Shown piece by piece: positions 40,053 through 64,000 of a stretch of DNA of 64,000 bases. The DNA comes from Adineta ricciae. Lineage: Eukaryota > Rotifera > Eurotatoria > Adinetida > Adinetidae. The DNA is taken from NCBI GenBank assembly GCA_905250025.1, contig CAJNOJ010000151.1, forward strand, positions 1 through 64,000. The letters are read 5' to 3'. Below the pieces are notes generated by a model. It had not been told where the DNA came from and searched no databases. It saw nothing but the letters and a program-made list of their open reading frames with translations. Position 1 is the first letter of the stretch; each line of letters begins with the position of its first letter. The position numbers were made by a program, and so were the translations under genes.

Positions 40053-40998
40053 GATTGGGAAATACGAAAGTAAAAGATGCTATTTACTACTTCATTTGTT
40101 TCATTTGATTACTTACTCTAACATAGAGGAAACCGCTGATTTCGTACTCCCAAAGATCCTGGGAATCTGTCGTTTGCCTCTTGTGTACAGTGCTTCTGAA
40201 ATATTCTTCATGATTTTCATCTATGGTTAATGATTATAATTAAAATATAGGTACATAAAATGCGATGTCTCTTTCTTTTATTGAATGTGTTTGTTTAATA
40301 GAAAACAGTTTCATGGCTTCTTAACTACTTTTAACATTCAAAACACTTCTTAATTAGCTTATCCGAACAAGAAGACTGTTTTCAAGCAATCTATTTGTAT
40401 ACACTGAAACTGACATAATAATTGTTCAATTAATCCACAATTTGTTTAATTTCTAGATCAGTATTTTACGGCTCTGTGAAGTATTGTGAAGATAGTATTT
40501 ACGTAAACAATATGATCAATTTCATAAACACCGTTTTTCAAAATGAAACATTACTTGTCAGTTTTCTATCACCAACTACTCCAGAAAAAAAACAGTTAAA
40601 ATCAAGTAGATGAAAAAATAAGCACATATTCATCTTTGTATTCGTCAAATGATTTCTTCATCAATAAATTTTTGAAAAAGATGAATCAGATGTTGTCTAC
40701 ACCCTCAGTCTTTACAACAATATATACAACTCGGTTACATAAAAGCAGATAAGATGTGGATTCAAGATTGTGCTTATCTCTATATGATACTAACAATACC
40801 ACGCATATTTTCTTTCCAAGTATACATCTCATGACTCAAACTAAAGATGACTAAAGCATAGTCTACTTCGTTTTTCTCAGAAAATCATGTTTTACACTAT
40901 GACTATATATAATACGAAATGTAAATTTTCAAGATTGAAGAGACTTCATTGACTAAATCGTCTAGCAGAAACAATTGCCCTTTGTACGTTTATAGAAA
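40053..40998. other. Intergenic region
   Basis: The left ~100 bp is the degenerate leader of the copy at 39762-40052. The rest is AT-rich, presumably holding the promoter of the phospholipase-like gene. No other feature seen. Confidence 0.5.
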
Positions 40999-42675
40999 AT
41001 GGGACGATCATTAACTATATGTATTGCTGTTTTTGTTGTGGTTTTAATTAGTGTGGCAATCACAGTGGGTCTCGTTATCGGACTACGAAAACGTAATTCT
41101 GCAATTCCAGATTTATCGACAAGTACTATTTATTCTGATGTAAAAGACATGGAACTGGTAGATATCGACAATTTACGTGTGTTTGGAGTCAAAGATTTCA
41201 ATGGTAATATACAAGCCGTACATGCTATCCAGACAAACGCCTCCATATATATGCTTGACAACGATTTAATCGCTCAGATACAAACTGAAGGATATACTCT
41301 CTTATTTAACTATAACTATACTATTAATGAGTATTACGTTATGTTTGTTTCCGAGAATAATTCGTATCAGATACCATCTACGTACAAAATTCCGACTGTA
41401 AAATTTCCAAACATCGAGTTTAAATATCCTATGGACGCTAATATGTCCAATCCTTTTACTGGTCTCATCATCGAATTAAAGGATAGTGTATCAGATATTT
41501 TGATCAATGATGCTATTTTACAATTCAATTATCATGATAGTCAATACGGCAATAGAAGTGTAACCATGATTAATACAGGCGCTGGACGATATTATGCTCT
41601 ATTACCTACTGTTAACAAAGAAAAAGATCCATATTTCGAAACGAAAAATGTATATGAAACCGTTTCTCAGCAAAGTGATTCTCTCATTGAATTATTACAA
41701 GTATATCCTATAGATGATATATTATCCAAAATACCAAAAACGACTAGATCATCTCTCTATGATATCGCCAATGAGATGAAGAATACAATTCCAGATGCTT
41801 TACGTACAGCATCCAAATATGCTAGTCACATTCCAACACAATCGGAATCATCTAGTGGTAATATGAGTCGTTTTGAGATCATAGTTCGTATACCAGGAGA
41901 ACTTCCAACAGTCATATCACTTGGTAATATCCCTATAGATCTGAATGATTTAACAGAAATTTCTCGCAAAGTTACGACCTCCAAGGGAAAGTGTAACGAA
42001 ATGACAGTAGCCGGTGGTAACAAACCTGACAAACAAACAATTCGTATCGGCAAAGGACACGTAGCTCTTCAGTTTCACTACGAAACTTTTATTATTAGGG
42101 ATAAAATCGATGTTTACTATACAGGAAAACTATTATTTACAAGCGATTGCGTCGGTACGAACGGCGAGAGAATCGCGATGTTAAGATTAGATGATGATGA
42201 CGCTAACTTAGTAGTTGATGTAACACCAAATTGTGCGGGTAATACAAGTACAGCATGGAATTACGCAATAGAGTGTCCAAACACTGAGTTAGTGTGTAAA
42301 TCCAATCTTTGCGGTTGTGGTATGAAACAAAAACCATCTAAGCAAGTTCTTCCACCAACAATGGATGGATGCGGAACAAATCACACAAAATGGAATTATT
42401 GGGCAATTCATTGGATTGGAGAGCATTACAAATTCACATCAATATGCGATGAACATGATCGATGTTATGGAACATGCAATACAAATCGATTAAATTGTGA
42501 TCAAACATTTTGTTCTGGTTTATTGGCATCCTGCAAAACTAACTGGAGCACAGATCAGATAAGATTCAAGTTCTGCAAAATGTGGGCAGGAACATACTGT
42601 AATGCTGTCAAACATTACGCTTCTGGAGCCTTCGAAAATGCACAAAATGAAGACTGTTGGTGTGAGGATACATAA
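40999..42675 (+). CDS. Membrane-anchored phospholipase A2-like protein
   Basis: A single exon of 558 aa. Residues 5-29 are one TM helix (LTICIAVFVVVLISVAITVG) followed by RKR, so it is a type II protein or has an uncleaved signal. Residues ~45-440 form an N-glycosylated ectodomain I do not recognise. The C-terminal ~105 residues look like a secreted PLA2 fold: a calcium-loop-like DGCGTNH near 456, then CDEHDRCYGTC near 483-493 with the His-Asp catalytic pair, and many Cys. It would hydrolyse the sn-2 ester of phospholipids outside the cell or in the secretory lumen. The canonical CC before the HD is C-D-E here, as in some non-classical PLA2 groups, so activity is inferred, not certain. PolyA signal at 42753-42758. 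Confidence 0.7.
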   Translation: MGRSLTICIAVFVVVLISVAITVGLVIGLRKRNSAIPDLSTSTIYSDVKDMELVDIDNLRVFGVKDFNGNIQAVHAIQTNASIYMLDNDLIAQIQTEGYTLLFNYNYTINEYYVMFVSENNSYQIPSTYKIPTVKFPNIEFKYPMDANMSNPFTGLIIELKDSVSDILINDAILQFNYHDSQYGNRSVTMINTGAGRYYALLPTVNKEKDPYFETKNVYETVSQQSDSLIELLQVYPIDDILSKIPKTTRSSLYDIANEMKNTIPDALRTASKYASHIPTQSESSSGNMSRFEIIVRIPGELPTVISLGNIPIDLNDLTEISRKVTTSKGKCNEMTVAGGNKPDKQTIRIGKGHVALQFHYETFIIRDKIDVYYTGKLLFTSDCVGTNGERIAMLRLDDDDANLVVDVTPNCAGNTSTAWNYAIECPNTELVCKSNLCGCGMKQKPSKQVLPPTMDGCGTNHTKWNYWAIHWIGEHYKFTSICDEHDRCYGTCNTNRLNCDQTFCSGLLASCKTNWSTDQIRFKFCKMWAGTYCNAVKHYASGAFENAQNEDCWCEDT

Positions 42676-45248: not shown

Positions 45249-45579
45249 TTAAAAGTAATCTTCACTATACATTGGACTCTTCGTTACAGTTATGGGCACA
45301 TCTTGTCGATTTCCCAACGAAGTTGGTTCGTAGTTACGTTGTTTTTGTTCTCGATGAGAGTTGAAAGGTAGAATGTATCGAAAACTATTAGAAGGTGAGA
45401 CTGATCTTGTTGCACGTCGTGGTCGACGAAATTCTATTGTGGATGGTTGATCGTTCAAATCAATAACTGATATGGAGCGTTTGGATAATGTATACGGAGC
45501 GGCGCTCATGGCGTACATAGGTTCAGATTTTCCTAGTTGATGAATATCTTGAACAACTACGGACGAAGAATTTTGCGCA
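45249..45579 (-). other. Alternative last exon B of the DSL/EGF gene
   Basis: An acceptor (ttcttag) at 45580-45581 is followed by T/GCG/CAA, matching the phase-2 donor of the TM exon at 45945. It encodes a 109-aa Ser/Arg-rich tail ending MYSEDYF. Confidence 0.6.
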
Positions 45580-48500
45580 CTAAGAATAGAAGCAAATGAA
45601 AATCTTATTCTCATAATTCATAAGGATTCGATTCAAGCGAAGAAGTTAATGAAGTCACAACAGGTAAAGCTGAATGTGCAGAAGAAGCATTTAAATATCT
45701 CCATTCTTGCTGTGATAGACGGCGAACTTGTAATTCGGGTGGAGGAACTATTTGGTGGTCATTTAAAGTTGATGTTGATGGAAAATAATTTTGTTCACGA
45801 CTAAGAATATCAATACGACGCATTGTTCGTCGACGATTTGGTCGATAAGATATCTCTCTAAATCTATTGTTAGATATAAGCATAAGCAGAAGCGTTAATT
45901 CGAAAGCAATTCGATTACAAGAGAGAGAGAGAAATGAAACTTACCGTCTTCGGCAACAAGCATAACATATCAGACAGATAATTAACCAAACTGTCAAGAT
46001 GCTCACAACAAGAATTAAGATAATCCACCAATCAAGCTAGAAAATAAAAAATATAAATTCGATGTAAAGAAATTCTTTTTCATTACTCCAAAAAATAGAC
46101 CAGTACGACGATAAAATGGAACGTTTGTTGATTCGTTATTTGTGAAAATCAGTTGACTATTATCTTTTGTTGGTATATAACGTGTGTAAACTAGTGTTTG
46201 TAAGCCCGTTTGATTAAATATTTGTGTATAGAGTCTTTCAGATGGTTGAGAATAATCACCAATATCACCTGAACGCAAGCCAATCATATAATCTACTTTA
46301 GTTTGTCCATTACTAAATACAAATGTAAAGGAAACTTCACAAGACTTCAATCTCATATTTACTTCAACATATTCGAAGTTATTGATGGAATGGAAACATC
46401 GTTTGATGAAAAAAGATAACTATTAGCTAATGACCAACTTGTTCTTAGTGCTTGATTGATCATTGCCAGTGTTGTTGAACTGGTTAAATTCACTTTATTA
46501 CCATCGATATAAATCGAAAACTGCTTGTAAGGAATATTTGTATATAAATTCGATAAACTAAATAAATTCATTGCTGGTTGCGTAACAGTTAATGATGATA
46601 CATCGGAACCATTGAGATTGATCGTGTAAGTAACACGTGTTAATGATTGATTATTATTAGTTAAATAAGTCGAATCGAAATACATTTGTGGTGGAACATT
46701 AATAAAGAAGTTATCTAAATAATTGAAATAAATTACAAAATTTCAATCGAAAAAGTTCGATTTACTATTCGATTGCCGCCATGCGTTCTCTAAAGCAGTA
46801 CGTATAACATCATTTGATGGTCGTGGTTCCATTAAATATATCCAATACGCTCGATTCGATACACAGTGACTTGTCTAAATTGAATATATTCCTTAAGTGT
46901 TTTTTTCTCGAAAGAACGAAGAACATTGAACTTACGTTTACAAACTTGCCGTAAAGTTGGTCAAACGCTGAATTCGGTGGCGGAATTAAATTATTCACAT
47001 TAACATTCGTAGAAAGACTTTGAACAATATAATCAATTCGAAATGATTTCTTTCTAGAAAAAGACAAGTGACATAGACAAAAGCATTTATCTCGAAGAAT
47101 CATACCCTCCCGAACAAACATATTCATATTGATTTTGTAATTGAATCATTAATGTTCCTGGCTGTATACCGATGTTTTGGTTCATCCAAATTTGTACAAG
47201 ACCATCAGCTAAGGCGATCGGTTGTGCAACAAAAACATTTCGTTCGAGATAAATACTATAAAGACCACCAGTTCCATTATTTAGATTTGTTACTCCTGGA
47301 TAATACAAAGTAAAATCACATCGAGTGAGTATTTGTGTATTATTGAGAAACTAAAACAAAGTTCATGAGAATTCCAACAATAAAACTCCTTTTCTCAGTA
47401 CCACAAGATAAAATCGAGTTTGATTCGCAATGATCGTTTCTGCATAGACTATTTTTGCCACACCATACTCTACAAATATCATAAAAGTTAATATTGAAAT
47501 GATTGACAGTATTTTCTTACGTCGATTGAATGATGTGAGATAATTTTCAACATCTTGACGAATAGCAGCTGACAGTGGTAAAGTGACATTTGTTATATAT
47601 TGAAAAGCATCACTACGAGCAATTGACGACTGTTCACTTGGATATAGATCATATTTGATTGGTTGCATGGTTGAAAAGATTGACTAGAAGAAATAAAAAA
47701 AAATGAAAATAAAACTCAATTTAGGAAACAATATACTTTTAATTGAACTTGGATTTGGTCTTGTGCAACAACTTGACTTGGTACAACCATATAATAAACT
47801 CGTGTGACCAGTGACATATCGAAACCGAATCGTAGTTCGACTAAGATTGACGAAACTGTACTACTAATTCCTGTTCTCTGCAATGCTGAAGTGATTAATG
47901 ATGCAAAATTATCTTGAGTTAGATCAGCTTGAAGATAGTTTCCTCGGAGATCAATAAATGATGCGGTGTAACTAAAAGGAATTTGTGAAACGTAATTATT
48001 CGGCGAATCGCATAAACCATTTAATGGTTGAATGAAATTCGGATTGAAACATGCACTTGGAACTGTATAGCCATCGGATGTGACAACGACATACGTTATT
48101 GTTGTATAAAATTGACTAAAGACAAAATAGTACATGAAGATAAACCGAAAGTTCATTGAGTTTTACTTTGCTGAATAGACGAAGTTTTGTTGTAGTTGAA
48201 GAATATAAACGTTGGAATTGACTAAACCTTGTCGAATTGGATTTTGCCAATAATCTGCCAAACTTGTTTGCGCTAATGTTCGACTAATTTTTCCCGTGAA
48301 AGTTATTTGTTGCACATCACGTTGTTTAACAACATTAATCGGAAGGGCATTTGAGATAAATGTCAATGGAGTTTGAGAATAAAATGTACTCGTGAATTGT
48401 CCAGGAGATAAACTTAAACTTGATAAATATCTTCCGTCAAGTTCTTGATCGTTAAAGAACACAAATGTATAAACTCGTTGAATGGTTTTAAGTGAACTGG

Positions 48501-51500
48501 CGTTTAAATACGGATCCTCAAGTAGAACTTTAGCAGTATTACCAACGATTGTACCTTTTTATTAGAAGAAAGTGAGAAGATAAGAATTGACGAGTAAAAT
48601 TTGAATTACTTTGTTGATTATATGTTGCTAAAATTAATCGTTGTAGATAATCTCGTTCGTTTATCGTTAAAGAGTTGGAAAAGAAATATGAATAAGCTTT
48701 GGATAGACGATAGACTCGAGTTAACAGACGTTGTAATTGCACAGAGATCAAAATTTGATATAGTTGACTATTCAATTGTAATGGAGCATCAAACCATGTG
48801 CCATTCTGATGTTGAATATAGATATTTGGTAGACGATAGATACGACTAGAAGAAAATAGATATGAAAATCATGGAAAATATTCTTCATACTTCGTAGTAT
48901 CGACTGCTTCTTCAACACCGAAGATCGTCATGTTAATTGTGTAAATTCCAGCTTGTTGTAAGGCATTGTTTAGTTGTCGTTGAAGTCTAATGAAATCGTG
49001 CTTTTCACACACTAAAATAAGATTCTGTTTTTCACTTACATTTGTGGTATTGGACATGAAACATAAAAATCTTGGATACTGTTTTGAAATGGAAGTATTT
49101 GTGTCTGATTTGAGCACAATAGTTGACTATTTGCTTGTGCAATTGTGGAAAGTAATATTGGATTCAATGTTAAATTAGTAGTTGAAGTTTGATTGTAGGT
49201 CATTCCATTGATCGTGATCAGAAAATATGCAGTATTTGCAGGTTGTCTATCAATGTTAAAAAAAATAGAAATTGTTTTAGAATGAGATTTAACTCAACAT
49301 TACCCTGTTGATGTTACACCAGGTTGAACACCTTTTAACATAACAGTAACACTCGATTGTCCTAAAAAAATGTTTCGTTTTTCGTTTATTTAGAAAAACC
49401 AAGTTCCTACCAGTCGCTGCTGAAACTGCATTAGCAACGACGTTTGTCCATAGTGAAATTTCATTCAATGGAATACATAGTTTCAGTGGTAAAAGAATAT
49501 TTAACGATATAAATGGTGTACATTGTTGATAGATTCGATAACTGACAGTACTAAGTATATCAGTAATCGATGCTAACGGTTCAACATTTGAACCCAGAAC
49601 AATTGATGAGCCACTTGTAATGATGAATCGTATTCGAGTCATCAAATCACCGGATATTGTCGTATAATGTTCAACTTTCAATGGAACTGCCACGTAACTC
49701 TCTACCAGAAGGACAACAATAAGAAATATAGAAATTTTACAAGTAGACTTACGTGTCGAGAGAATTGTCATTCGATGTGATGTGTAGTACGAAGAAATTG
49801 TTTGCATTAATAATTGAACATTTCCATCGGTTATCGATGGAAAATAGCCACATATATCGATAACATATGGATCAACTGATGCTGTTGGATTACCGATTGC
49901 ACCACACATTGCTGCATATTGTGCTGCAGTTGGCTGTTGAATAACAACATTCGATGGAATTGTTGAAAAAATTGTATAGTTGAAATTAAAGATAATCACT
50001 TGAGTTCTAAAGAACAGAAACGAATGATGAAACGTAGAAGAGAAAAATCCATACTGATTAATGTATCCATATTGTTGAGATGCAAGGAGAAGAGCTCGAG
50101 TTTGATTATCAAGTGGAATGCGTGTTGCGGATATTTTACAAAGTGTCGAGTATGTTTGGGAGGATGAACCTGTCGTTAATCGTCGATTTGTTAATTGTGC
50201 AAATGTATAATATATTGATTGACCCACTACATGAAAAACGAAGAAATAAATGAAATTGTTCACTGTATCTAAACGTGTGTACTTGATGAAGTTATTCCGA
50301 ATTGTGTGAGAATTGATGAATCGATATCGATACGAGTATTATTATTTGCTAATAACCATTGCCATCGATTCAATGTTGGATTAAAAATTCCGCTTGTCCA
50401 AAAATCTAAATGGCAACTATGCATTCGTGAGTAGAACTAAAAAGAAAACATACCTCGAGCTAAACCACGAGCAAATAGTGCTGGAATTAGTTGTTGTTGA
50501 AGTTCATCATTTGATTGGAACCAAACGAGTTGAGAAGATTTATCACTACAATCTTGAATAGCATTCATTTGACTCACAAGTGATGCTTGTTGATTAATTT
50601 GATAACAGTATGGATAGAATGTTGTCGGACTGAGCAATGTAAACGGAGTATTACATGCTAGAAAACCAAGTAGTCTATCAGTAGATGAATAGAATTTATG
50701 ATCTACATACCGAGTATGACATTTAAACTGTTCCAAACTTGATCGACACATTGTGCAATAATTTCCCATGTTGAGCCTAAATATAGATTCGTGATGATCC
50801 GCTTATCAGAAGTCTATAAATGAAATACCTCCTGGTCGATCAATTGGAATAATAATTTGACCTGGATAGGTTGTGTTCACTGGTGTAGTTGGTGTTTGAC
50901 AAACACTTCCTGTGAATGTTACTGGACATAAACATGTACATTGGCATCCAGTGGCATTGAGAATACGTGTGCCATTGTTTTGACACGATGTTAATGTGCA
51001 TATATCAAATGGTGTTTCACATCGAGATCCTATTGATATTTTTTCGAATAAATAAACTTTGGTGTTAGATAAGAGAAAAAGAGTTTACTTACCGGTGAAT
51101 CCACATGGACATTGACAACGTAACAACGTACTATTTTGAACCATACATGTGCCCCCGTTAAAACAACTATCACTCATGCAAACTGGAATATTGCAATTCG
51201 TACCTACAAAATATTTCCCTTTTAAGGAGATTCTTTTTTTATAAATTAGTTCATTACCAGTAAATGCAACTGGACATGTACACCTATACAATCCACTGCC
51301 TAAGTTGAGACAAGTGCCACCATTTTGACCTAGATGTATTTTCTTCGATACATAAGACTAAATTCATTCGATTGACTTACATGGACCCGACGTACAAACG
51401 TCGTAGGGTATTTCGCACGATACGCCTAATTAAACGAACAATGCATGATTGATCGAATCAAGGAACTATTATTTACCTGTATAACCAAGTTCACAGACAC

Positions 51501-54500
51501 ACTGATATGTCGTTGAATTTAGATTACGACATGTTCCTCGGATGCATGGACTGGAACCACATGGTGAAATGATTTCGCAACTAAAAATGAAATAGTTCTT
51601 GAAGATATCTAGAGTATCACGTCAAACATACTAAACGCCGTATCTTCCGGGTGCACATTGACAAATTTGTTGACCTGTGATTGCATTCATAATGCAAGTG
51701 GAGTTTCCTTGACAAGGATTCGTGGGACAAATAAGTATTTGTTGCGAACATGTTAAACCAGTGTACATTGGTGGACATATGCAAGTATAATTGACTAAAG
51801 ATAATGTTAAACAAGTGGCATTATTCAAACATGGATTTGAAGCACAAGGTAATGTTGGGATGTCGCAATTCGTTCCAGTTAATAGTGATGGACATATGCA
51901 TTGATAGCCACCATTAGCAAGACTTACACAAGTACCAGTTCGACAAGGATTGGACGAACATCCAAGTGATATGCTTTCACAACGAGAACCTAAATAGTTA
52001 ATAATAAATTGAAAATATTTGTATAAATTGCTTCATTCATACCAGTGTATAATGTTGGACAGATGCATTGCCAAAATGGATAGCTTCCAATAGATACACA
52101 AGTACCATTATTGATACAAGGAAAGGATCGGCACGGATCATATGTTTCACAATTGTTTCCGTAGAAACCCGAATTGCAAAAACACAGATATGATCCATAT
52201 GAGTTTATACATCGTCCACCGTTAGCACAAATGCCTGGTATCGTTGTACATTCATTAATATCCGCACATCTAAATACAAAATTATCCTGATACTATAGTT
52301 CAATATATTCTTCAAATACATACACTCCCATGATGTATTGAAATCCAGCTGGACACGTACATGTATAGGAATAATTTCCACTCGCAATACAAGTACCAAT
52401 TAGACATGGATTATTTTGACAGACATTTATTTGACATAGAGCACCTGTATATGGATACGGACATTGACATTGGCATGTGATTGGTGATGTTACTAATGAT
52501 GTACCAATAGCACATGGATAGCAAGAACACGGATTGAGTTGTGTTTCACAATAGCTGCCATTGTATCCTGCAGGACAAGCACATGTGTATGTTGTTGGAC
52601 CTGTTCGCACACAAGATCCACCATTCCGACATGGACACGATTGACAAGGATCATAGACTGTAGCGCACGTTGTACCATTGTAACCAGCGGCACAAACACA
52701 CGTATAGTTGAAATAGATCGGTGATGATATGCATTGTGATAATGGTCCACGACATGGATAACTCACACAAGGATCGCACGCTAGCTGACAATTAACGCCA
52801 TAGAATGGCCATGGGCATTGGCAGATATAATAGTTTGACGTTGGTTCGAGACATGTTCCTCCGTTCAGACAGGGTTTACTTAAACATACACTAACGCCAG
52901 TTTCGCAGTTAGTGCCATTAAATCCAGTTGGACATACACATATATATGATGAATTACCTTGTGCGACACATGTGCCAAGATTTTTACATGGTTGAGATGA
53001 ACATACATTATTGATCAAAGTACAATTCGGACCAGTGGCACCAGTAAGACATATACAACGGTACCCAGTAGTACCATCTAATATACACTGACCATAAATG
53101 CAAGGCGACGGGGAGCATGGATTAATTGGCGTGTCACAACGTATGCCAGTATAGCCTTGATAACAATCACATGTATAACTATTGGTTGTATCATTTGTTC
53201 GACACTGTCCGTATAGACAAGGGCATGATCCGCAAGCACCATTAGATATACGTGTATCACAACGAAGCCCACTGTAGCCGTTCGGACATGTACAATTAGC
53301 TAAGCCAGCACCAAGATAGTTACATGTACCACGAACACAATATGAACTATTTCCTATCGTTGTCGAACACAGATTGATAGGTGTTTGACAAAGATATCCT
53401 GTGTAACCGCTGGAACATTGACATGTACAATTCGTTGGACTCGATACAATAGGTACACCGTTGCCACAAGTTAATGATGAGCAATTACTAATCAGTGTTT
53501 GACAAATAATGCCTGTGTAGATTGATAGACAGTTGCAAGTAAATGATGTTGTTTGTGAAATACAAGTTCCTTGATTCAAACATGGATTCGACGAACACCA
53601 GTTGGTATTTGATTCACAACGAAGACCACCGTAGCCAAGCGGACATGAACATTGATAACTAAGACCATTCAGTATTGCTGCACACGTGCCATTATTTAAA
53701 CATGGACTTGATAAACACGGTTGAATAATAGTCGAACAATTGACACCTGTGTAACCTTGTTGACAAACACATTGATAACCATTTAAGGCTTCAATACAAA
53801 CACCATTGTTTTGACAAGGTGTTTGTGAGCAGAATTGATCTCTCAATTGACAAAATACGCCCCGATAAGACGATAGACACGAACAATTTAATAAGCCAGG
53901 ACCAATATCATTGCATGTTCCACCATTTAAACAAGGAGATGATTGACATGCTTGCACACGTACGGCACATGTTGTTCCTTGAAATCCGTAAGGACATTGA
54001 CATGCGTATGAACTAATTTGATTGATACATGTAGCGTTATTCAAACAAGGACTTGATGTACATGGATTGATAGGTGAATCGCAACGTTGACCAGTATAAC
54101 CGGGAAAACAATAACATTGATAGGAATTGCTTGATGAGATACATGTGCCATTCACACACGGCGAAGTCGAACAGAAGCTGATGGTATTTTGACATGCAGT
54201 ACCTGTGTAGCCGGATGAGCATACACAGATACCTGTTGATGAACTTGTTCGAGTACATGTGCCGTTATTGAAACAAGTGACGGACAAGCACGGATCGAGC
54301 ATTGACTCACAGTTGGTACCGGAATATCCTTCGAATAAATGGATATAAAACGAAAACAAGCTTGTACATGCACCTACCAGTGGGACAAAGACATTGATAG
54401 CGATTTAATGTCGGCTGTAGACAAATACCAGCATTCTGACATGGTGCTGATGCACATTCATTAATATCAATTTCACAACGATTGCCTGTGAGACCGGCTA

Positions 54501-57500
54501 TACATGTGCATCGATAACCAGTACTCGTAATAGCACACGTGCCATTATTAAGACACGGACCTGAACTGCACTGATAACCGCCATCTTGACATTGAATTCC
54601 TGTATATCCATTGGGACAAGTACAAGTAAATGCATTGATCATATCCATACATGTACCATTGTTTAAGCAAGGCGAACTTGCACATTCATTGATATCTGTT
54701 TGACAATTGAAGCCTGTGTAGCCAGGAGTGCAAAAACAATAATAATAGCCCGGAGCAACTTGTCGACATGTACCAAATCGACATGGATTTGATGCACAAG
54801 CATTGATAGTCAATTCACAGCGAGGACCTGTATAACCATATGGACAGGAACATTGAAAACCAGCACTGGTCACAATAGTGCATGTACCATTGTTTCTAAT
54901 CGAAAGCAAGGAAAAATCAGGCCTAGCTCGATTCTATCCGAACGAAACTTACAAGCAAGGACTACTTGAACAAGGCTGAGCAATATTTTGTTCGCAATTC
55001 GTTCCTTGAAAGCCACTTGTACATATACATTGGTAAGCATTGGTTAACGACAAACATGAACCGTTATTTTGACATGGTAAGCTTAGACAAAAGTTGACAT
55101 CATTCTATCAAAAAAGAAATATGCTTTTCATTGAAACCAAAACAATTCAACTTACATCACACAATACTCCTTCACTTCCTGAATAACAAGTACAAATAAA
55201 TCCATTGACTCGATCAACACATCGTCCACGTCTACACGGTTGTGTCACACAATCATCGATATCAATTTCACACATGGAACCTGTATAACCTGGTAAACAT
55301 CCACATGTATAACCTTGAGGTTTAACGTCATAATTAACTAAACAAGTGGCATTATTGGCACATGCTGTTGAACTTGAACATGGATTGATTTGTTCAGAGC
55401 AAGTCACTCCTGAAAACCATGGCGGACATAAACAAATATAACGCTCCAGTCCATCAATACAAGTAGCATTCGAATGACAAGGATTGGAAGCACATTTATT
55501 AATTTGAATTTCGCAATGAACACCTGTATAAGACGATGATGAACATATGCAATCATAACCATTCAATCGATTTTGACAAAAACCATTGATACATGGCGAA
55601 CTCGAGCAATAGTCCATCAATAAATGACAATTCGATCCGGTATAACCAGGTATACACTGGCATTTATAATTCCAAATTCCATCAATACATGTTCCATTAT
55701 TTAGACACGGATTCGATGAACATTCATTGGATTTATTTTCACATCGTAAACCAATGTAATCGTCAAGACAAGCGCAACGATAGCCATTAACAAGTGATAT
55801 GCATAAACCATTGTTTGAACATGGATTACTTAGACAATAATTGATCGCTGTTGAACATGTTGTTCCCTGTCAAATTCATTGCAAGATCAGAAAGTTTCTA
55901 GAAAATATCGTGTTCACTCTTACGTTGTAACCCTGTGGACAATCGCATTTGTATCCATTGATTAGAGTTCGACATAAACCACCGTTGAAGCAAGGATTTG
56001 ATTGACAATAATCAATTTGAGTTTCACAATAGTAACCAGTAAAACCTAGAGAATTATTATTGTCTCTTTTTGTCCAGAAAGGAATGATAAAGATATTGAA
56101 TTGAATCTTACCCGGAGCGCAAACGCAGGAGAAATTATTGAAATGATCGATACATCGTCCAGAGTTGAGACATGGATTGACTGGTTCACATTCATTACGT
56201 TCCGTTTCGCATTGAGTACCTAGACGAGATAGAGTGAGACAAGAATATAATAAAATTTCACAATAAGCAACAAAGGAAGAAGTTATCTTTACCCATCAAA
56301 CCACTTGGACACTGGCAAACATATTGATTAACTAGTGATTTACATGTTCCATTATTTCGACATGGTTGTGATTGACATTGATTGATGATTGTTTCACAGA
56401 ATTGACCAGTAATACCAGTCAAGCAGGAACACTGAAAACCAAGATTAGTATTCGAACAGAAACCTCCGTTTTGACACTAAAGAAAAACAATTGAGTATGT
56501 TTTCAACGTAAATATTCAACCTTCTACCGGTTGTGATTGACAATAGTCAACAATCAATTCACAATTAACTCCTTGATATCCTTGTGCACATAGACACGTT
56601 AATGTTGTTCCATTTCGTATACATTTACCACCATTTAAACACTCGAAGCCTGTACATTGATCCATTACACGTCCACAGTTATTTCCACTGTAAACAGCTG
56701 GACATACACACTGATATCCATTGACTAAGTCCACACATGTTCCACCATTGATGCACTAAATGTAGATTCGATTCTCTTAGTTATTCGGCTTACAAAGAAT
56801 AACTTACTGGTTGCGACGCACATTCATTGATATTAACTTCGCAATAACGACCTGTATAACCTGATTTACACAAGCATGTAAATAATCCAGCTGTTGTTTG
56901 CACACACTGTTGAGCGCCGGTAGTTGAACATGGATTCGTGGAGCATAAGTCCATCATTTGCATACACTGAGTACCTGTATAACCTGTGCCACAGCAACAT
57001 GTATAATTCGATCCTAAACTGATACAAGTGCTATTCGGACCACATGGTGACGGCGAGCATTGATTCATTGGGGTGTCGCATCTTAGCCCTGTATAACCAT
57101 TCATACATACACACAAATAAGTTGAACCTGTGGCAACACTCGTAGTACAAGTTCCATAAACACAGGGATAACTTGAACATGGACTGAGAGTTTGTTCACA
57201 ACGTAAACCCGTATACAATGATGGACAAATACAAAGATAACCTACGCCACTTGTTGTGTATGAATCGCGACACGTGCCACCGTTTAAACAGGGTAAACTA
57301 AGGCATTGACTAATGACGGATTCACATCGCATACCAGTATAACCTGATGGACAGATACAGATGAAACTATTGATTTGATCCACACATGTTCCATTATTCA
57401 GACAGGGGGCCGACTGACAATCATCGATGTTGATCTATGAAAATATTTAAAGATTTCGTACTTTTTCTTTTCTGTTATGTTCTACGAATTCGTATTTACC

Positions 57501-60500
57501 TCACAGAATATACCGGTAAAGCCAACTTGACAACGGCATACCAGACTTCCACCATAGTTATAAACACAAACACCATTATTTCGACATGGATTACTCGAAC
57601 ACAAATCAATCTGTGTATAACAATTAGCGCCAGTTAACCACGTTGGACAAATACATCTGTATGAACCAATGGTATTTATACACGTTGCATTTGGGCCGCA
57701 AATAGAAGCGGTAAGACATTCATTTATATCTATGTCACAGTATGTTCCCGTCCAACCGGGAGGACATATACATCCCAAAGAGACCACGTTATTCACGCAT
57801 GTACCTTTTCGAAAAACAAACTATGTATAACTAATATGACACTTTCAAATTGATATTTACCATTATTTTGGCAGGGCACGCTTGAACATCCGTTCAAGGA
57901 CACTTCACAATTTGTACCCGTATAACCAGTTAAACAGATACAACGATACTGGTTAATACCGTCAATGCATACACCCGCATTTAAACATGGATTTGATGCA
58001 CACTCATTGATACCGTCTTTACATTGCAAACCAGTCCAACCCGGTTCACATGCACATGTCCACATATTCACTGATGCCACACATGTACCAAATGAGCATG
58101 GTCCACTATCACACGGACTTAGGACAGTTTCACAACGTGATCCTTGATGAAACAAAGGAAGTATTTTCGAAGAACCGGCAACATTATGGAAATTTACCTG
58201 TATGGCCTGGTTGGCATGTACAACTGTAAGCGTAACTCGTACCATTGTATACTAATTGACATGATACTGAACCAGATGCGACACATGGACTGCTTAAACA
58301 CGGGTCAATAGGAATACTACAGTCACTTCCTTGATATCTTCCATCACATTGGCAAACGTAACCATTTACTGTGTTTATACACGTGCCACCATTTCGGCAT
58401 GGCGTTGTCACGGACAGGCAAGAAGTGGCGGTTTGTGCACAAGTGGAACCTTCGAATAGAAATCTAGTCTATCATTCATTCTCCCTATCTTCTATGTTCA
58501 AACCTGAAAAGCCAGTTCGACAACTGCACGTATACGTTAAATTGTTATTATTGACACAACTCAATGTATTATTTGCGACGCATGGTTGGGAAAGACACGG
58601 ATTAAGTGCAATTGCACACGTGAGACCCGTATAAGTAGATGGACAGATGCATGAAAAACCAGTTGATGTGCTGATACAGACTCCATTGTTTGCACACGGT
58701 TGTGATCGACAGTAATCATTTTGAGTGTCGCATAGCTGGCCCGTAAAACCTACACAATGAATGAATAGAAAGGATGCATATTCTTTCTTTTTGTTTCAAA
58801 ATCAGACCTGTTGGACATACACAGTAGAATGAGTTGTTTGCTAATGCATAACATTGACCTCCATTTCGACATGGTGAATAATTACACGGATTTAGTGTGG
58901 TTTCACAGTAGACACCTGTGTAAGAATTGGAACATTGACATTGGAATCCTGTGGTTAACGCTACGCAAAAACCATTATTTCGACAAGGATTGCTTGAACA
59001 TGCACTGATTGATGTTTCACACAAACGACCTGAATAATAGAGAGAGTTCTGACGTTATTAGTTCTATCATTGCTATGGATATTTTCACTTACCAGTATAC
59101 GCTGATGGACAACAACATGACCCGTTGAAACATGAACCACCGTTACGACATCCCAATACATCAGGACATTCCGGATCAATATAAGATGAAAGATTTTTCG
59201 ACAGACAGCTATTTTCTGGATACCAATTCGACAAACATGTCGGAACGCCATTCGAATTACATGTGAAATGACCAGCGCTACAAGAATTAGGTGCATAACA
59301 TTGAACAGTACAGTTTGGCCCATATAACCCAGTAGGACATTGTTGACTTTGTTGACAATATAATCCTGAATATCTAAATTCCCACATATAAAAACGTTAT
59401 TTTCTATTCACAAGAATCGATTATCATTTGTGACATACCCAGTTGCACAGGTGCATACATAATAAGATGTACGCAAAACTGGATCATACGCAGCAGTACA
59501 TACGCCACCATTAAAACAGTTTATGTTGGGTGTACATGTTGATAAATATTGACAATTAAAACCAGTAAAACCTATCGAAAGACACAACGTTTTCCCATTC
59601 AAACAGGTAAAACAATTGAACTATACCATTCGCACAACAGCATGTTGCTTGATTCGTACTGTTAAACACTCGACAAAAACCACCATTATTACACGTTAAT
59701 GCTTAAAACAAAAAGAATAGAAAATATTTCAAATTTATTCTTCCTCTCATGTAAAAAATATTTACCAGCTGATGTACAACCCGACTGAACATACGATGAA
59801 TCTCGTACTGCACACTCTGTTCCAATCCAGCCCGGTGAACAAACTTTCATCCCTGTACTTGCATTACATGAATAAGAACTGGTACAATCATCATTTGGAA
59901 TACATCTAATTGAACATGAAGGGCCATAGTATGTCGCTTGACAATAACTTTTCATTCCAATAGCCAAGCTAAATATCGAAATAGGATTTATTTTCGGTAC
60001 AGAGACAAAAGAAAGATAACTACTGAAATAAATTTACCTATTCAATTGTGTTCCATTCTGTGCAACATCGTAGAGAACTGTAGTAAGAAATGTACCTGAA
60101 GTTGACGATGGAGATGACGCATCTGTTCGGAATGTGGTATAGAAACGACTTAATAATGTATTTTGATTGATTAATGAAAGATTTCCAATGCGTATATAAT
60201 CATAAAAGACAAAGAATTTGATAACCATAGTATTCTAATCGACAAATAAATGTATTTTTCCTTATCAAAGTTCGATTGCTCCTTACATCAGGTATAGATA
60301 TTAAAGGAAATTGAAATGGTAGAAATGGTGCCACATCAGTGAGCGAATGAAAATTTACAAGACCGGTATTATTTATCATAGTTCGAAATGATCGTGATCC
60401 TAATGGACAATACGTCCAATTAGTTTGTAAACCGCTAAAATAATAATAAAATCATATTTTTCATTGCTGAATAGCATCCATTAACAAGGAAAACTTGTTT

Positions 60501-61170
60501 TTTTTAGTGCAGAAAAACAACGTACAGATGAAATATTATTTTCTCATTATGTCTTGCGAAATGACTTTTAATTTTCAATGATTTAACAAACTCATCTATG
60601 ATTACGTCAGTTCTACTCGAAGACCTTTGAGCCAAAAGAATTCATAATCAATAACCTATTGTATATCAAATTCTTGTCTCGATTCTCAAAGCACATTTTC
60701 CACAATAAGTATATCCGAATTCAACGTACCTGTAGACAAAATCTAAACAAATAATCATATATAGATTACATGTAGATGTGGAACAAGTTCCCATGTAAAT
60801 TGTTCCATCACAACATTGTCCCGCGACAGTTATACGAGATAAAATATTCAATTGTGTTAAATCAATTTGTAGTGAAGAAGGTGCGTCTTGACAATTGATC
60901 TGTGTATAGAAAAGAAGGAGAAAAAAAAACATTTTGTTCTTTTCATTGAATCTGTGCACATTTAGTTCTCATCAAAGAATTATTGATGCGTGTACAGTGA
61001 ACAACTATCACTTAAATTTCAAGTGTTCTGTCTCTTGCTTTGAGTCACGATTGAATCGAAAAGAAAAATGTTTTACAAAGATTTTCACTTACATGATGAT
61101 GATTTTGGAATAATAATAATAAAAAAAAGACGAATAAAATGTTCGAAGGAGAACAATATGTGTTGAACAT
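45249..61170 (-). CDS. Giant Notch-ligand-like cell-surface protein (MNNL, DSL, ~60 EGF, lectin-like domain, TM)
   Basis: Exons checked in phase: 61093-61170 (signal peptide), 60730-60899, 60287-60434, 60038-60234, 59766-59968, 59627-59701, 59439-59571, 59093-59373, 58808-59029. Many EGF exons follow, mostly phase 1 (G/GT), then TM exon 45945-46036 and a last exon at 45611-45857 or 45249-45579. After the signal comes an MNNL-type domain (GQCCDG...CNLYMIICLDF). Next is a DSL domain with Jagged-like Cys spacing 8-3-11-8-8 (CQATYYGPSC...CSPGWIGTEC), EGF-like units and a second DSL-like unit (CPTGLYGPNCTVQC). Roughly 60 EGF repeats follow (51-59 kb), several of the DINEC calcium-binding type. Then come a C-type-lectin-like domain, beta-rich modules, and the TM helix (WWIILILVVSILTVWLIICL) followed by CRRR. 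By domain order it is Delta/Serrate-like, but far longer than Jagged (16 EGFs). Notch binding is inferred. Confidence 0.85.
45611..45857 (-). other. Alternative last exon A of the DSL/EGF gene
   Basis: Acceptor tttag at 45858-45859 and the same phase as exon B. It encodes an ~81-aa tail beginning REISYRPNRRRTMRR and ending SNPYEL with its own stop. No phase-compatible donor lies within it, so it cannot be joined to exon B. Confidence 0.6.
46037..50130 (-). other. Juxtamembrane beta-rich modules of the giant surface protein
   Basis: About a dozen short exons encode Ser/Thr/Asn-rich, low-Cys sequence. Alternating strands (VIIFNFNYTIF, FSYTASFIDLRG, VTRVYYMVVPS) are followed by a helix-like L..AL...GI or A.RTSW segment. 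The pattern recurs, suggesting several copies of one fold, SEA-like at best. I could not assign a family or exact boundaries. Confidence 0.4.
50130..50660 (-). other. C-type-lectin-like domain of the giant surface protein
   Basis: Follows the last EGF. Shows PYCYQI, a helix with SSQLVWFQSNDELQQQL, the WTSG core, W.W (NRWQWLL) and a closing STLCKI. Calcium-sugar motifs (EPN/QPD, WND) are not evident, so sugar binding is uncertain. Confidence 0.65.
59800..59950 (-). other. DSL domain of the giant surface protein
   Basis: Six cysteines with spacing C-x8-C-x3-C-x11-C-x8-C-x8-C, and the GPSC and GWIGTEC features of Delta/Serrate/LAG-2 domains. An additional Cys sits inside the x11 loop (IPNDDC). 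Confidence 0.8.
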
Positions 61171-62773
61171 TGTTAATCTGAAAGAAGAAATGAATAGATT
61201 TAATTGAAAATCATTTAAGGGATGAGACGGCAAGAATGAAATCTGTTTGTCATCTCGTGCTGAAATTCATTCGAACAGTATTATAATCAACGACGGAATA
61301 ACACCCACTCATTTCTTTCGTTATCCGATGCGATTGTATTTATGAGCTAGTAGGTAATGGCAAAAGTATATATTCATTCAATGAATAAACGATAAAAAAA
61401 AGCGAAAGAAAGAGATGTCATCATGTGTATCAGATCATTAGTATGGCAATAAGTTGGTTTTTGATTGTATATAAATGGTTTTCTCTTTCACCTACCTACA
61501 AGATTTCTCTTTCTCCTCCTTTTCTTTCAATAAAAACGACAACTTTGTTTGTGCTCTCTCTCTACTCTATTGAACTTTTATTCCTTCTCTCTCTCTCTCT
61601 TTCTTTAACTTCTGGAATCACATATATATGCATTATTTTGTTCTGTTCTGTGACTTCTCTTGTACGATGACATCTCGTCCTCACACCTACCTTCTCTCTA
61701 CATATACATTTAGAACAATTCGAAGGTGTCGATATCATTTATCACACATTCCAATTAGCTCTCATGTTTAGCTAATTATGTACAATCGTTCATTGTTCTT
61801 GATCATGAGTGATACTCTCAGCCGTCAACAAAAATCACTGTGGAGAAATTCAAAAACAAAATTAACTTCGAATTAGTCATCCATTCACCAGAAGGCATGA
61901 CATAAATGGACTAATCGAGGAATAAGTAGATGATCGATGTACATTAGTAGATGCTCTTTGTTTATCGATGTAGGTGTTAATAAACGTATAATTATTTATA
62001 TAGTACATGACTTTTTTTTTTGTTAATATTTCATTTGAAACGATTGGTATTCAAATATATGACTGTAAAGTAGTACTTCGAAGGTGTTCGAAGAAAATAC
62101 GATTATTCGTTGACAATAACATGTTGTCATGTTGCTTCTCTTTTGCAGAAGATCATTGAAAAGACAATGCAAGGTGTTTTAAATAATGTTCATACGAACG
62201 CATCATCTTGTAGTACAATTCTTTTCGATTGGTCAGTTTTATGTACTGTTTAGCAAGAGCATTTGTCGATAGGGTACTGCAGATCATCGTCACACATCCA
62301 TATAAATGCTACGCTATTTATAGTGGCCTGTCGTACTTATGAATGAAAAGAAGAAGTGTCTGAGTTAGGTAGCAATTGTATTTCCTATTACTTAACTTGA
62401 ACATGAAAAATTTTCTTTCAATTGCTTATCGGAAGTACTATGTAAAGCTCTCGGTTAGTAGCTTCTCACTTTAGTATATCATTCTTTGAGAAAGACAGAT
62501 GTTCTTCATATCGATCTACTTGAAAAAAAAAAGATTCTAACGCCCTCTCTCTTCGACTGTGTTATACAATTTCCTCTTGTATGGTCTATTACCTGAACCA
62601 ATATATAAATTCTGTATTGATTTTCGCGAAAAAATTCAGAACAATCTGATTAGAGATTAGTTTTACTCAACGCACTCCCCGTTATCATTTAGATAGTAAC
62701 TGTTGCTGTCTCTTCATTTCCATTGATGTTTAACATGTCGATCGTAAGATAAGACAATCTAGTTGACTTGACA
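61171..62773. other. Divergent intergenic region
   Basis: This 1.6-kb stretch separates the starts of the DSL/EGF gene (-) and the glycosidase gene (+), so it should hold both promoters. It is T-rich with CTCT tracts near 61560-61610. No RNA gene or ORF is supported. Confidence 0.55.
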
Positions 62774-64000
62774 ATGAGTTTTTCTTCTATTCAAATATTA
62801 ACACTAATTTTATTTGTGATCACGTCCGTTGCCTATGATTGTCCATCCTCGTATCATGTTCAGGCAAATTCAACAGATATATCCTTCCAAACATCGTCAA
62901 CCATTCAAATTGTTTTGTCAAAACTTTCCTATAAATTGACCGTTATTGATTTAATGACACGAAATGTTCTGTTGCAGAGCAGTCGAGATATTTTCGCTGG
63001 AATATGGGAAGGTACTTATGAAACTCTCTATTTCGGATATATGTTTCGTGCTGGATTCGAAAAAGAACATCGAATAATTGGCAATTTCGAATCGTACTCG
63101 TGTTCTCCTGCGCCAAATTCAATCACATTTTCGTTTCAGGACTTTTCTTTGATATTCGTTGTGGAAGATAACGAACGTAATGTTCATCTACAAGTGACAT
63201 ATACGGGATTCAAAGAACATTTCGATCCTAAATCGACACATTATGTTTTTCCATTTTTGACTTTAGCATTTCGAACACGAGATAGTCAAGAAGATTATTA
63301 CGGTTTTGGTTCCTATTGGGGTTTCACGAGATTTCGTGGAGAGAAATTCTATAGTTGGAGTGAAGATGGTAGTTGGTCATTTCTAAATTTCTCCAGACGA
63401 ATACCTCAATCCAATGCGAGTTACATTCCAATGCCACTTTTTATATCGAATCGTCAATATTCGGTATGGGTAAATGAAAGTCGCCGTGTCAATTTCGATC
63501 TCACTTCTCCGAATGAATGGATCGTTACTACCGAATGGAATAGTACAAATATTCAATTCTATTTTCCCATTACAAATACGACTTTACCAATAAAATCGAT
63601 TATGTCAAAACCGTTTGAGAGATTTTACAATCTCTATCGAGAACAAAATAGGAGAATCAATCCAGCATTTACCGCATTGGTACAAGCACGAGGTGAAACG
63701 ACTCGAATTCCACCGATATTTGCGTTTGGTCCATGGAAACAAACGTCGAATGTTTTGAGAAATGAAACGGAAATCGACGTTGTACGACGTATGATCGAAC
63801 GAGATATCCCAATAACAATTCGAATTGGTTATTTGCATTTTTTTCCAAAAGGAGATCAACAAGGTAAAGCGGTCTGATAAAAATTCATTTCTTATCTCTA
63901 CTTATGTCGAATTTAAGGCCATGAAAATGAAATTCTCGCAGAAAATCGTATTTACAACGCACTTGGCGTCACATCGTTATGTTATTTCAATCCGTACGTA
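62774..64000 (+). CDS. Secreted GH31-type glycosidase, 5' part (continues beyond window)
   Basis: Exon 1 is 62774-63863. A 54-bp intron follows and exon 2 runs from 63918 off the window. The ATG at 62774 (MSFSSIQILTLILFV) opens a signal peptide cleaved near SVAYDCPSS. The N-terminal galactose-mutarotase-like beta domain of GH31 is suggested by YYGFGSYWGFTRFRGEKF, the D..W loop after it, and MPLFISNRQYSVWVNES. Then comes the start of the (beta/alpha)8 barrel, PPIFAFGPWKQ, which resembles the sulfoquinovosidase/alpha-xylosidase branch. The catalytic Asp residues lie beyond the window, so substrate and activity are undetermined. It probably acts in the lysosome, gut lumen or outside the cell. 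Confidence 0.72.

Follow-up and report, generated by a model that had tools for sequence, protein, structure and literature searches.

The joint presence of MNNL and DSL domains is considered as strong evidence for the Notch ligand Delta (PMC6040629). The DSL family is described as having six cysteines, and the number of EGF repeats varies from 0 to 75 in Delta and from 12 to 18 in Jagged (PMC2770060). In the definition of PMC5356439, Delta excludes additional conserved domains, and the proteins having them are called “DSL-like”. Genes with 1 to 11 DSL domains occur in Nematostella, one of them combining MNLL with three DSLs (PMC2770060), and DSL expansions, including multi-DSL bivalve genes, are reported for lophotrochozoans in PMC8166818, the main text of which contains neither “rotifer” nor “lectin”. 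Capsaspora carries a “Delta-like” receptor tyrosine kinase with two DSLs, and DSL ligands can serve as adhesion molecules (PMC4810162). Uninflatable, a large EGF/lectin protein, is able to inhibit Notch in cis on over-expression (PMC3340373). The survey of rotifer lectins deals with the secreted ones and leaves out transmembrane proteins (PMC8878817). Here, we describe a gene of the bdelloid rotifer Adineta ricciae encoding a giant protein which, judging by its sequence, is an unusual variant of this known kind: its Notch-ligand-like start with two DSLs is followed by some 63 EGF repeats, then by a likely lectin-like domain and a lengthy stalk belonging to no recognised family. The gene lies on contig CAJNOJ010000151.1 (C151), the first 64,000 nucleotides (nt) of which represent the stretch analysed (the window).

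The surveyed genome comprises 130.5 Mb in 1,033 contigs, and further copies of the gene are located on contigs C106 and C213. Our own small gene finder, trained on long open reading frames and run on all three copies, predicted a single gene of about 4,200 residues at each of them. In the window, the main model runs along the minus strand from the ATG at 61170 to the TGA at 45611 and includes 50 predicted exons encoding 4,152 amino acids (aa); the start codon, which lies in the N-terminal exon, has its first base at 61170, and this ATG is common to the C106 copy. All 49 introns of the final model are GT-AG, 47 of them being 45–87 nt and the first two 193 and 295 nt long, so no gap resembles a gene boundary. 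The C106 copy is identical to the window DNA at 94.0% across 18.5 kb, and C213 aligns in collinear pieces at 63–84% (66% for the longest one). For the proteins of the first models, identity is 95.7% with C106 (3959/4136 columns) and 57.2% with C213 (2313/4041 columns), and the architecture is kept end to end in both copies; some stretches of their models resemble unspliced introns. Since all exons are predictions, one can suggest that the model wrongly joins at least two neighbouring genes, one with the DSL domains and the other with the EGF repeats and the membrane segment. However, no gap after the second intron exceeds 87 nt, the splice sites are uniform, and the first window model shares 47 of its 49 junctions with C106 (48 in all) and 38 with C213 (43 in all), which makes such an artefact very improbable. 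As supported by the three collinear copies, the locus is one continuous real gene in which the DSL head, the EGF repeats and the transmembrane segment are combined, as the preliminary description of this sequence had proposed. The span given there, 45249..61170, is confirmed as a real locus, 61170 being its start codon. The open reading frame at 45579–45249, which stops at 45249, may represent an alternative last exon, the stop of the main model being at 45611. In comparison with C106, its ratio of nonsynonymous to synonymous substitution rates (Ka/Ks) is 0.127 over 109 codons, and no counterpart was found in the C213 copy.

The domain order in the protein is as follows: putative signal peptide, divergent MNNL/C2, DSL1, two EGF repeats, DSL2, about 61 EGF repeats, borderline lectin-like domain, orphan stalk of about 1,060 aa, transmembrane helix and short tail. 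The putative signal peptide is hydrophobic by eye and does not reach the Kyte-Doolittle threshold of 1.6. With the DSL profile (Pfam cut-off 24.2 bits), single exons gave 49.3 bits for DSL1 and 27.1 bits for DSL2, and the N-terminal 501 aa gave 53 bits. For MNNL (cut-off 22.5 bits), the score is 20.1 bits (E 4.8e-4) in the window copy with the region scanned alone, 20.7 bits in C106 and 27.7 bits, above the cut-off, in C213. When the N-terminal 501 aa of the window copy were scanned as one piece, MNNL was absent from the Pfam matches, and this is weak evidence because a like scan also missed the MNNL of an ordinary ligand on C47, which scores 31.7 bits by exon. Of the MNNL and DSL domains proposed earlier, the DSL thus stands, while the MNNL passes its cut-off only in C213; a profile score below threshold, named there as evidence to the contrary, is what the MNNL of the window copy gives when taken by itself. 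The head had been read with a single DSL, and the second one was missed.

Along with the giant copies, the genome harbours ordinary DSL genes and a Notch-type locus. With the DSL profile, 11 matches on eight contigs were obtained: C151, C106 and C213 have two each, and C26, C34, C47, C5 and C2 one each. The latter five represent two gene types, of 456 aa (C26/C34; L013, L014) and 755–774 aa (C47/C5/C2; L015, L016, L017), and one Notch-repeat (LNR) locus is located on C7. These ordinary genes share with the giant one the MNNL and DSL heads and the mid-C2 intron but differ from it in being short, with one DSL of shorter loop each, few EGF repeats and neither the lectin-like domain nor the stalk; their loop between the third and fourth DSL cysteines is shorter than in DLL1. 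In three alignments built without intron information, the mid-C2 phase-0 introns of the giant gene and of the C26/C34 ligands are 2 columns apart, and the distance to the C47-type intron is 3 columns. The pre-domain phase-0 intron of the giant gene lies 2 columns from the C26/C34 one in all three alignments, and likewise for the C47 type in two of the three. Other head introns differ: the giant gene has two phase-2 introns, and the C47 type has a phase-0 intron before the DSL. The intron positions provide independent support for the MNNL/Notch-ligand origin of the head. When the giant C2 was compared by profile with its counterparts in the ordinary ligands, E was 9.6e-5 and the probability only 58%, over 60 columns. 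Among the 14 PDB sequences matched by the head, 6 are Notch ligands, the others being Notch, Tie2 and EGF proteins; the top match is DLL1 (E 2.9e-9 as a whole, only 0.003 for the best single stretch). The head (C2-like MNNL plus DSL) is probably of Notch-ligand descent, as supported by the DSLs, by the MNNL above the cut-off in C213 and by the common intron positions, which supports the derivation from this lineage suggested earlier.

The DSL domains themselves are peculiar. In all three copies, DSL1 and DSL2 each have seven cysteines instead of the six expected of Delta, and by eye the extra one occupies a matching position in the two domains, after the third cysteine and before the next canonical one. 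This coincidence suggests an intragenic duplication, by which DSL2 probably arose. In known ligands, the DSL stretch corresponding to the loop with the extra cysteine carries several residues contacting Notch, among them Arg203 of Jagged1. PMC5538765 locates Arg203 in the Notch interface. None of the ligand-type EGF1-2 Pfam models exceeded its cut-off in the N-terminal 501 aa.

In total, 54 strict six-cysteine EGF matches were found in the protein, compared to a mean of 2.6 and a maximum of 6 in 100 protein shuffles (maximum 7 when only the EGF region was shuffled), and there are 62 C-x-C...G...C endings. With nine repeats read by eye in the gaps, the total is 63 (2 before DSL2 and 61 after it), in agreement with the roughly 60 counted originally and above the minimum of nine used for Delta. 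By the known consensus patterns, the 54 strict repeats of the window copy include 25 with the O-fucose consensus, 37 with the O-glucose consensus and 7 of calcium-binding-like type; for the 56 strict repeats of C213, these numbers are 22, 27 and 8. The families of enzymes adding O-fucose- and O-glucose-type sugars are present in the genome. No VWC domain, as expected of Jagged, was listed in the Pfam-scanned pieces, which cover only part of the array, and the exon of human JAG1 that holds the end of EGF1 and the whole of EGF2 between phase-2 and phase-1 introns (PMC2725086) was not found in the giant gene.

The lectin-like domain (Pfam cut-off 22.6 bits) scores 12.4 bits in the window copy, where the query was a 1,388-aa piece, and 22.1 bits (E 2.7e-4) in C213. 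The C213 domain matched 18 PDB sequences up to E 10, namely 10 Ly49-type natural killer cell receptors, 2 convulxin chains and 6 unrelated proteins; the nine best are all C-type-lectin-like (best E 0.016). The near-cut-off Pfam score and the PDB matches together make a C-type-lectin-like fold likely, not certain, so the domain named in the preliminary description is a borderline one, under the Pfam cut-off in both copies. Sugar-binding C-type lectins have EPN or QPD, and WND, calcium-site motifs, and these were not seen by eye in the domain of the three copies.

The stalk (1,062 aa) has no Pfam family over the cut-off, consistent with the unassigned modules noted before the membrane helix, and no match among PDB sequences except at the transmembrane segment. 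Its 30 matches in the genome, among the best candidates scored, are all on C151, C106 and C213. The SEA profile is not among the Pfam matches of the stalk scans; in a genome search for SEA as a stalk relative, there was no match, but the controls were silent too, and this search shows nothing. KIAA1549 reaches only 7.7 bits in the giant protein, at the transmembrane segment and under the cut-off, and as a stalk relative it was rejected, its sole genome match being under the cut-off and in another gene, on C13. That place (C13:154497-154709, L025) encodes a weak KIAA1549-like juxtamembrane and transmembrane segment (20.2 bits, cut-off 24). For one stalk exon (window 47737-48114), the predicted structure was unusable, with a mean confidence score (pLDDT, predicted local distance difference test) of 38.4. 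Eleven anchors, picked by eye for a common motif, are spaced at 91–108 aa, a regularity which is partly due to this selection. In profile comparison, the best real pair scored 24.3 against 18.2 in reversed controls, with means of 11.9 and 11.0 (45 pairs each). The pairwise scores were reached by random phases in 3 of 200 cases for the flank −35 to −3, but in 65 of 200 for the flank −50 to −1 and in 64 of 200 for that of +11 to +45. With leave-one-out profiles, the window copy scored above every one of the 200 shuffles in five of the eleven modules and failed in six. These mixed tests suggest, and do not prove, that the stalk consists of eleven beta-rich modules of about 100 aa. A single segment, aa 4034–4070, exceeds the Kyte-Doolittle threshold, in line with the one transmembrane helix described before; it is followed by a predicted intracellular tail of 85 aa, so that the membrane and intracellular parts expected of Delta are predicted here, and a kinase is not among the Pfam matches in the tail.

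Table 1. Features of the giant gene in the window (aa numbering of the main model)
Feature	Position	Strand	Basis
Whole coding span, main model	45611..61170	−	Own gene finder, two further copies, 5' correction; stop codon 45613-45611
Putative signal peptide (N-terminal leader), aa 1-29	60891..61170	−	Hydrophobic run by eye; one 193-nt intron inside
MNNL/C2-like domain, aa 30-206	59944..60890	−	Pfam scores in three copies, common mid-domain phase-0 intron
DSL1, aa 207-250, seven cysteines	59812..59943	−	Pfam 49.3 bits; pattern in three copies
EGF 1 and 2, aa 262-341	59355..59778	−	One strict match, one read by eye
DSL2, aa 347-391, seven cysteines	59205..59339	−	Pfam 27.1 bits; pattern in three copies
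EGF 3 to ~63, aa 404-2765	50899..59168	−	53 of 54 strict matches plus 8 by eye; Pfam EGF in four exons scanned
Likely C-type-lectin-like domain, aa 2822-2950	50135..50625	−	Just under Pfam cut-off in C213; best PDB matches C-type-lectin-like
Orphan stalk, aa 2979-4040, perhaps eleven ~100-aa modules	46087..50002	−	No Pfam family over cut-off, no PDB match except at the transmembrane segment; genome matches in the three copies; modularity tests mixed
Predicted transmembrane helix, ~aa 4043-4063	45968..46030	−	Hydropathy
Predicted cytoplasmic tail, main model, aa 4068-4152	45614..45955	−	Homologous tail in C106 and C213
Possible alternative last exon	45249..45579	−	Conserved in C106, not found in C213, reached in model only via GC-AG intron

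Ka/Ks was calculated by the Nei-Gojobori method with our own script. Against C106 and C213, respectively, it is 0.10 and 0.18 for the whole protein, 0.13 and 0.23 for the stalk, 0.14 and 0.18 for MNNL, and 0.05 and 0.24 for DSL1. Ks towards C213 mostly exceeds 1, with saturation for DSL2 and EGF 21–40, so these ratios are rough. DSL2 runs contrary to the other values, with 0.84 against C106, a ratio resting on only four differences. Judged from these comparisons, the full-length gene is under purifying selection.

The comparison with described proteins outlines what is unusual here. The number of EGF repeats alone is not new, since Deltas with up to 75 are reported, and the premise that Notch ligands normally have 2–16 of them is too strong for the family as a whole (PMC2770060). 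The giant protein shares with Delta the order of the head domains, the EGF repeats after the DSL and the type I membrane layout, but differs in having DSL2, the seventh cysteine in both DSLs, about 63 EGF repeats, the lectin-like domain and the stalk. The scheme of PMC5356439 would class it as “DSL-like” rather than Delta because DSL2, the borderline lectin-like domain and the stalk are extra domains. Such “DSL-like” proteins and the multi-DSL genes of Nematostella and bivalves similarly have further domains or several DSLs; however, in the parts of these sources available, they are not described with a lectin-like domain or such a stalk (PMC5356439, PMC2770060, PMC8166818). The Capsaspora receptor also combines two DSLs with tandem EGF repeats in its ectodomain, but it belongs to a unicellular relative of animals and is a receptor tyrosine kinase (PMC4810162). 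Drosophila Uninflatable likewise unites EGF repeats with a C-type-lectin-like domain in a large transmembrane protein, but has 18 EGFs, CUB, CCP, FA58C and HYR, with no DSL in its domain list, and would at most be an analogue (PMC3340373). A precedent for the whole domain combination was not found in a limited literature search, most subscription journals being outside it. The earlier reading of the locus as a giant protein derived from a Notch ligand is therefore supported in part: the ligand-lineage head and the unity of the gene stand, while the EGF premise, the overlooked DSL2 and the window-copy MNNL do not favour it.

We suppose, with a probability of about 0.5, that this protein is a long-reach receptor for adhesion or recognition, or a cis-acting modulator of Notch, rather than a canonical trans-activating ligand. 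Its head probably descends from a Notch ligand; the DSL was probably duplicated within the gene, the EGF array would have grown to about 63 repeats, and the lectin-like domain and the stalk are situated between this array and the membrane, giving a very long type I membrane protein of predicted topology. Given the known length of an EGF repeat, 63 of them, if extended, would reach well over 100 nm, beyond the usual cell–cell gap. The non-canonical role is suggested by the extra cysteine in the Notch-contact loop of both DSLs in all three copies, by the ligand-type EGF1-2 models being under the cut-off, and by the presence of ordinary DSL genes and a Notch-type locus in the same genome. Adhesion or cis-modulation would be in line with the ability of DSL ligands to act in adhesion (PMC4810162) and of Uninflatable to inhibit Notch in cis (PMC3340373); we infer the reach, the partner and the role alike.

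Several observations weigh against this reading. The six-frame genome search for MNNL, made exon by exon, found five places, all in ordinary ligands and none in the giant copies. The DSL loops of the ordinary ligands are divergent as well, so the loss of loop residues says little. DSL1 is among the better-conserved parts towards C213 (Ka 0.235 vs 0.327 for the whole protein), which would also fit a kept Notch-binding role. A merely elongated canonical ligand, whose head binds Notch on the neighbouring cell and activates it by endocytic pulling, would agree with this conservation of DSL1, with the MNNL-DSL order, with the ligand-lineage introns and with the published many-EGF Deltas (PMC2770060). 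The extra cysteine, the insertion of DSL2 after two EGF repeats and the lack of ligand-type EGF1-2 over the cut-off make it unlikely, although binding could persist in spite of each. The great length, the lectin-like domain, the stalk and the density of O-glycosylation consensus sites point in another direction, to a mainly structural, matrix-facing glycoprotein of the surface coat, in which case the ligand-type head would serve no function specific to Notch; this we find doubtful, as the head (MNNL and DSL1) is under purifying selection and a transmembrane helix with a conserved tail is present. As an extension of the receptor or cis-modulator reading, it is possible, if tentative, that the gene represents a lineage-specific class of giant DSL receptors. 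In these, the seven-cysteine DSL of the head would be duplicated, the arm would have some 63 EGF repeats, and the stalk would consist of tandem modules not described before; the class would have given up Notch activation for adhesion at long range, self-recognition or cis-inhibition, with three or more copies retained in a rotifer-like polyploid genome.

Two plus-strand open reading frames flank the gene in the window. At 40996-42675, a 559-aa frame has a hydrophobic segment in its N-terminal part and, in its C-terminal part, the motif CDEHDRCYGTC, which presumably recalls secreted phospholipase A2; at 62753-63877, a 374-aa frame resembles what we take to be the start of a GH31 alpha-glucosidase. 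Elsewhere in the genome, arrays of TGTGGG, presumably the telomere repeat of bdelloids, were found on six contigs and, like the short introns and the pairing of a near-identical with a diverged gene copy, agree with a bdelloid rotifer; the reversed-pattern control was uninformative, since the reversed pattern is the same repeat.

The described gene illustrates the extent to which a Notch ligand may be remodelled, and with it one can ask in a natural setting whether DSL proteins are able to abandon canonical signalling in favour of adhesion. Its EGF array, dense in O-glucose and O-fucose sites, is a substrate for asking about the role of such glycans outside Notch, and the stalk modules, if upheld, would constitute a new family of extracellular domains.

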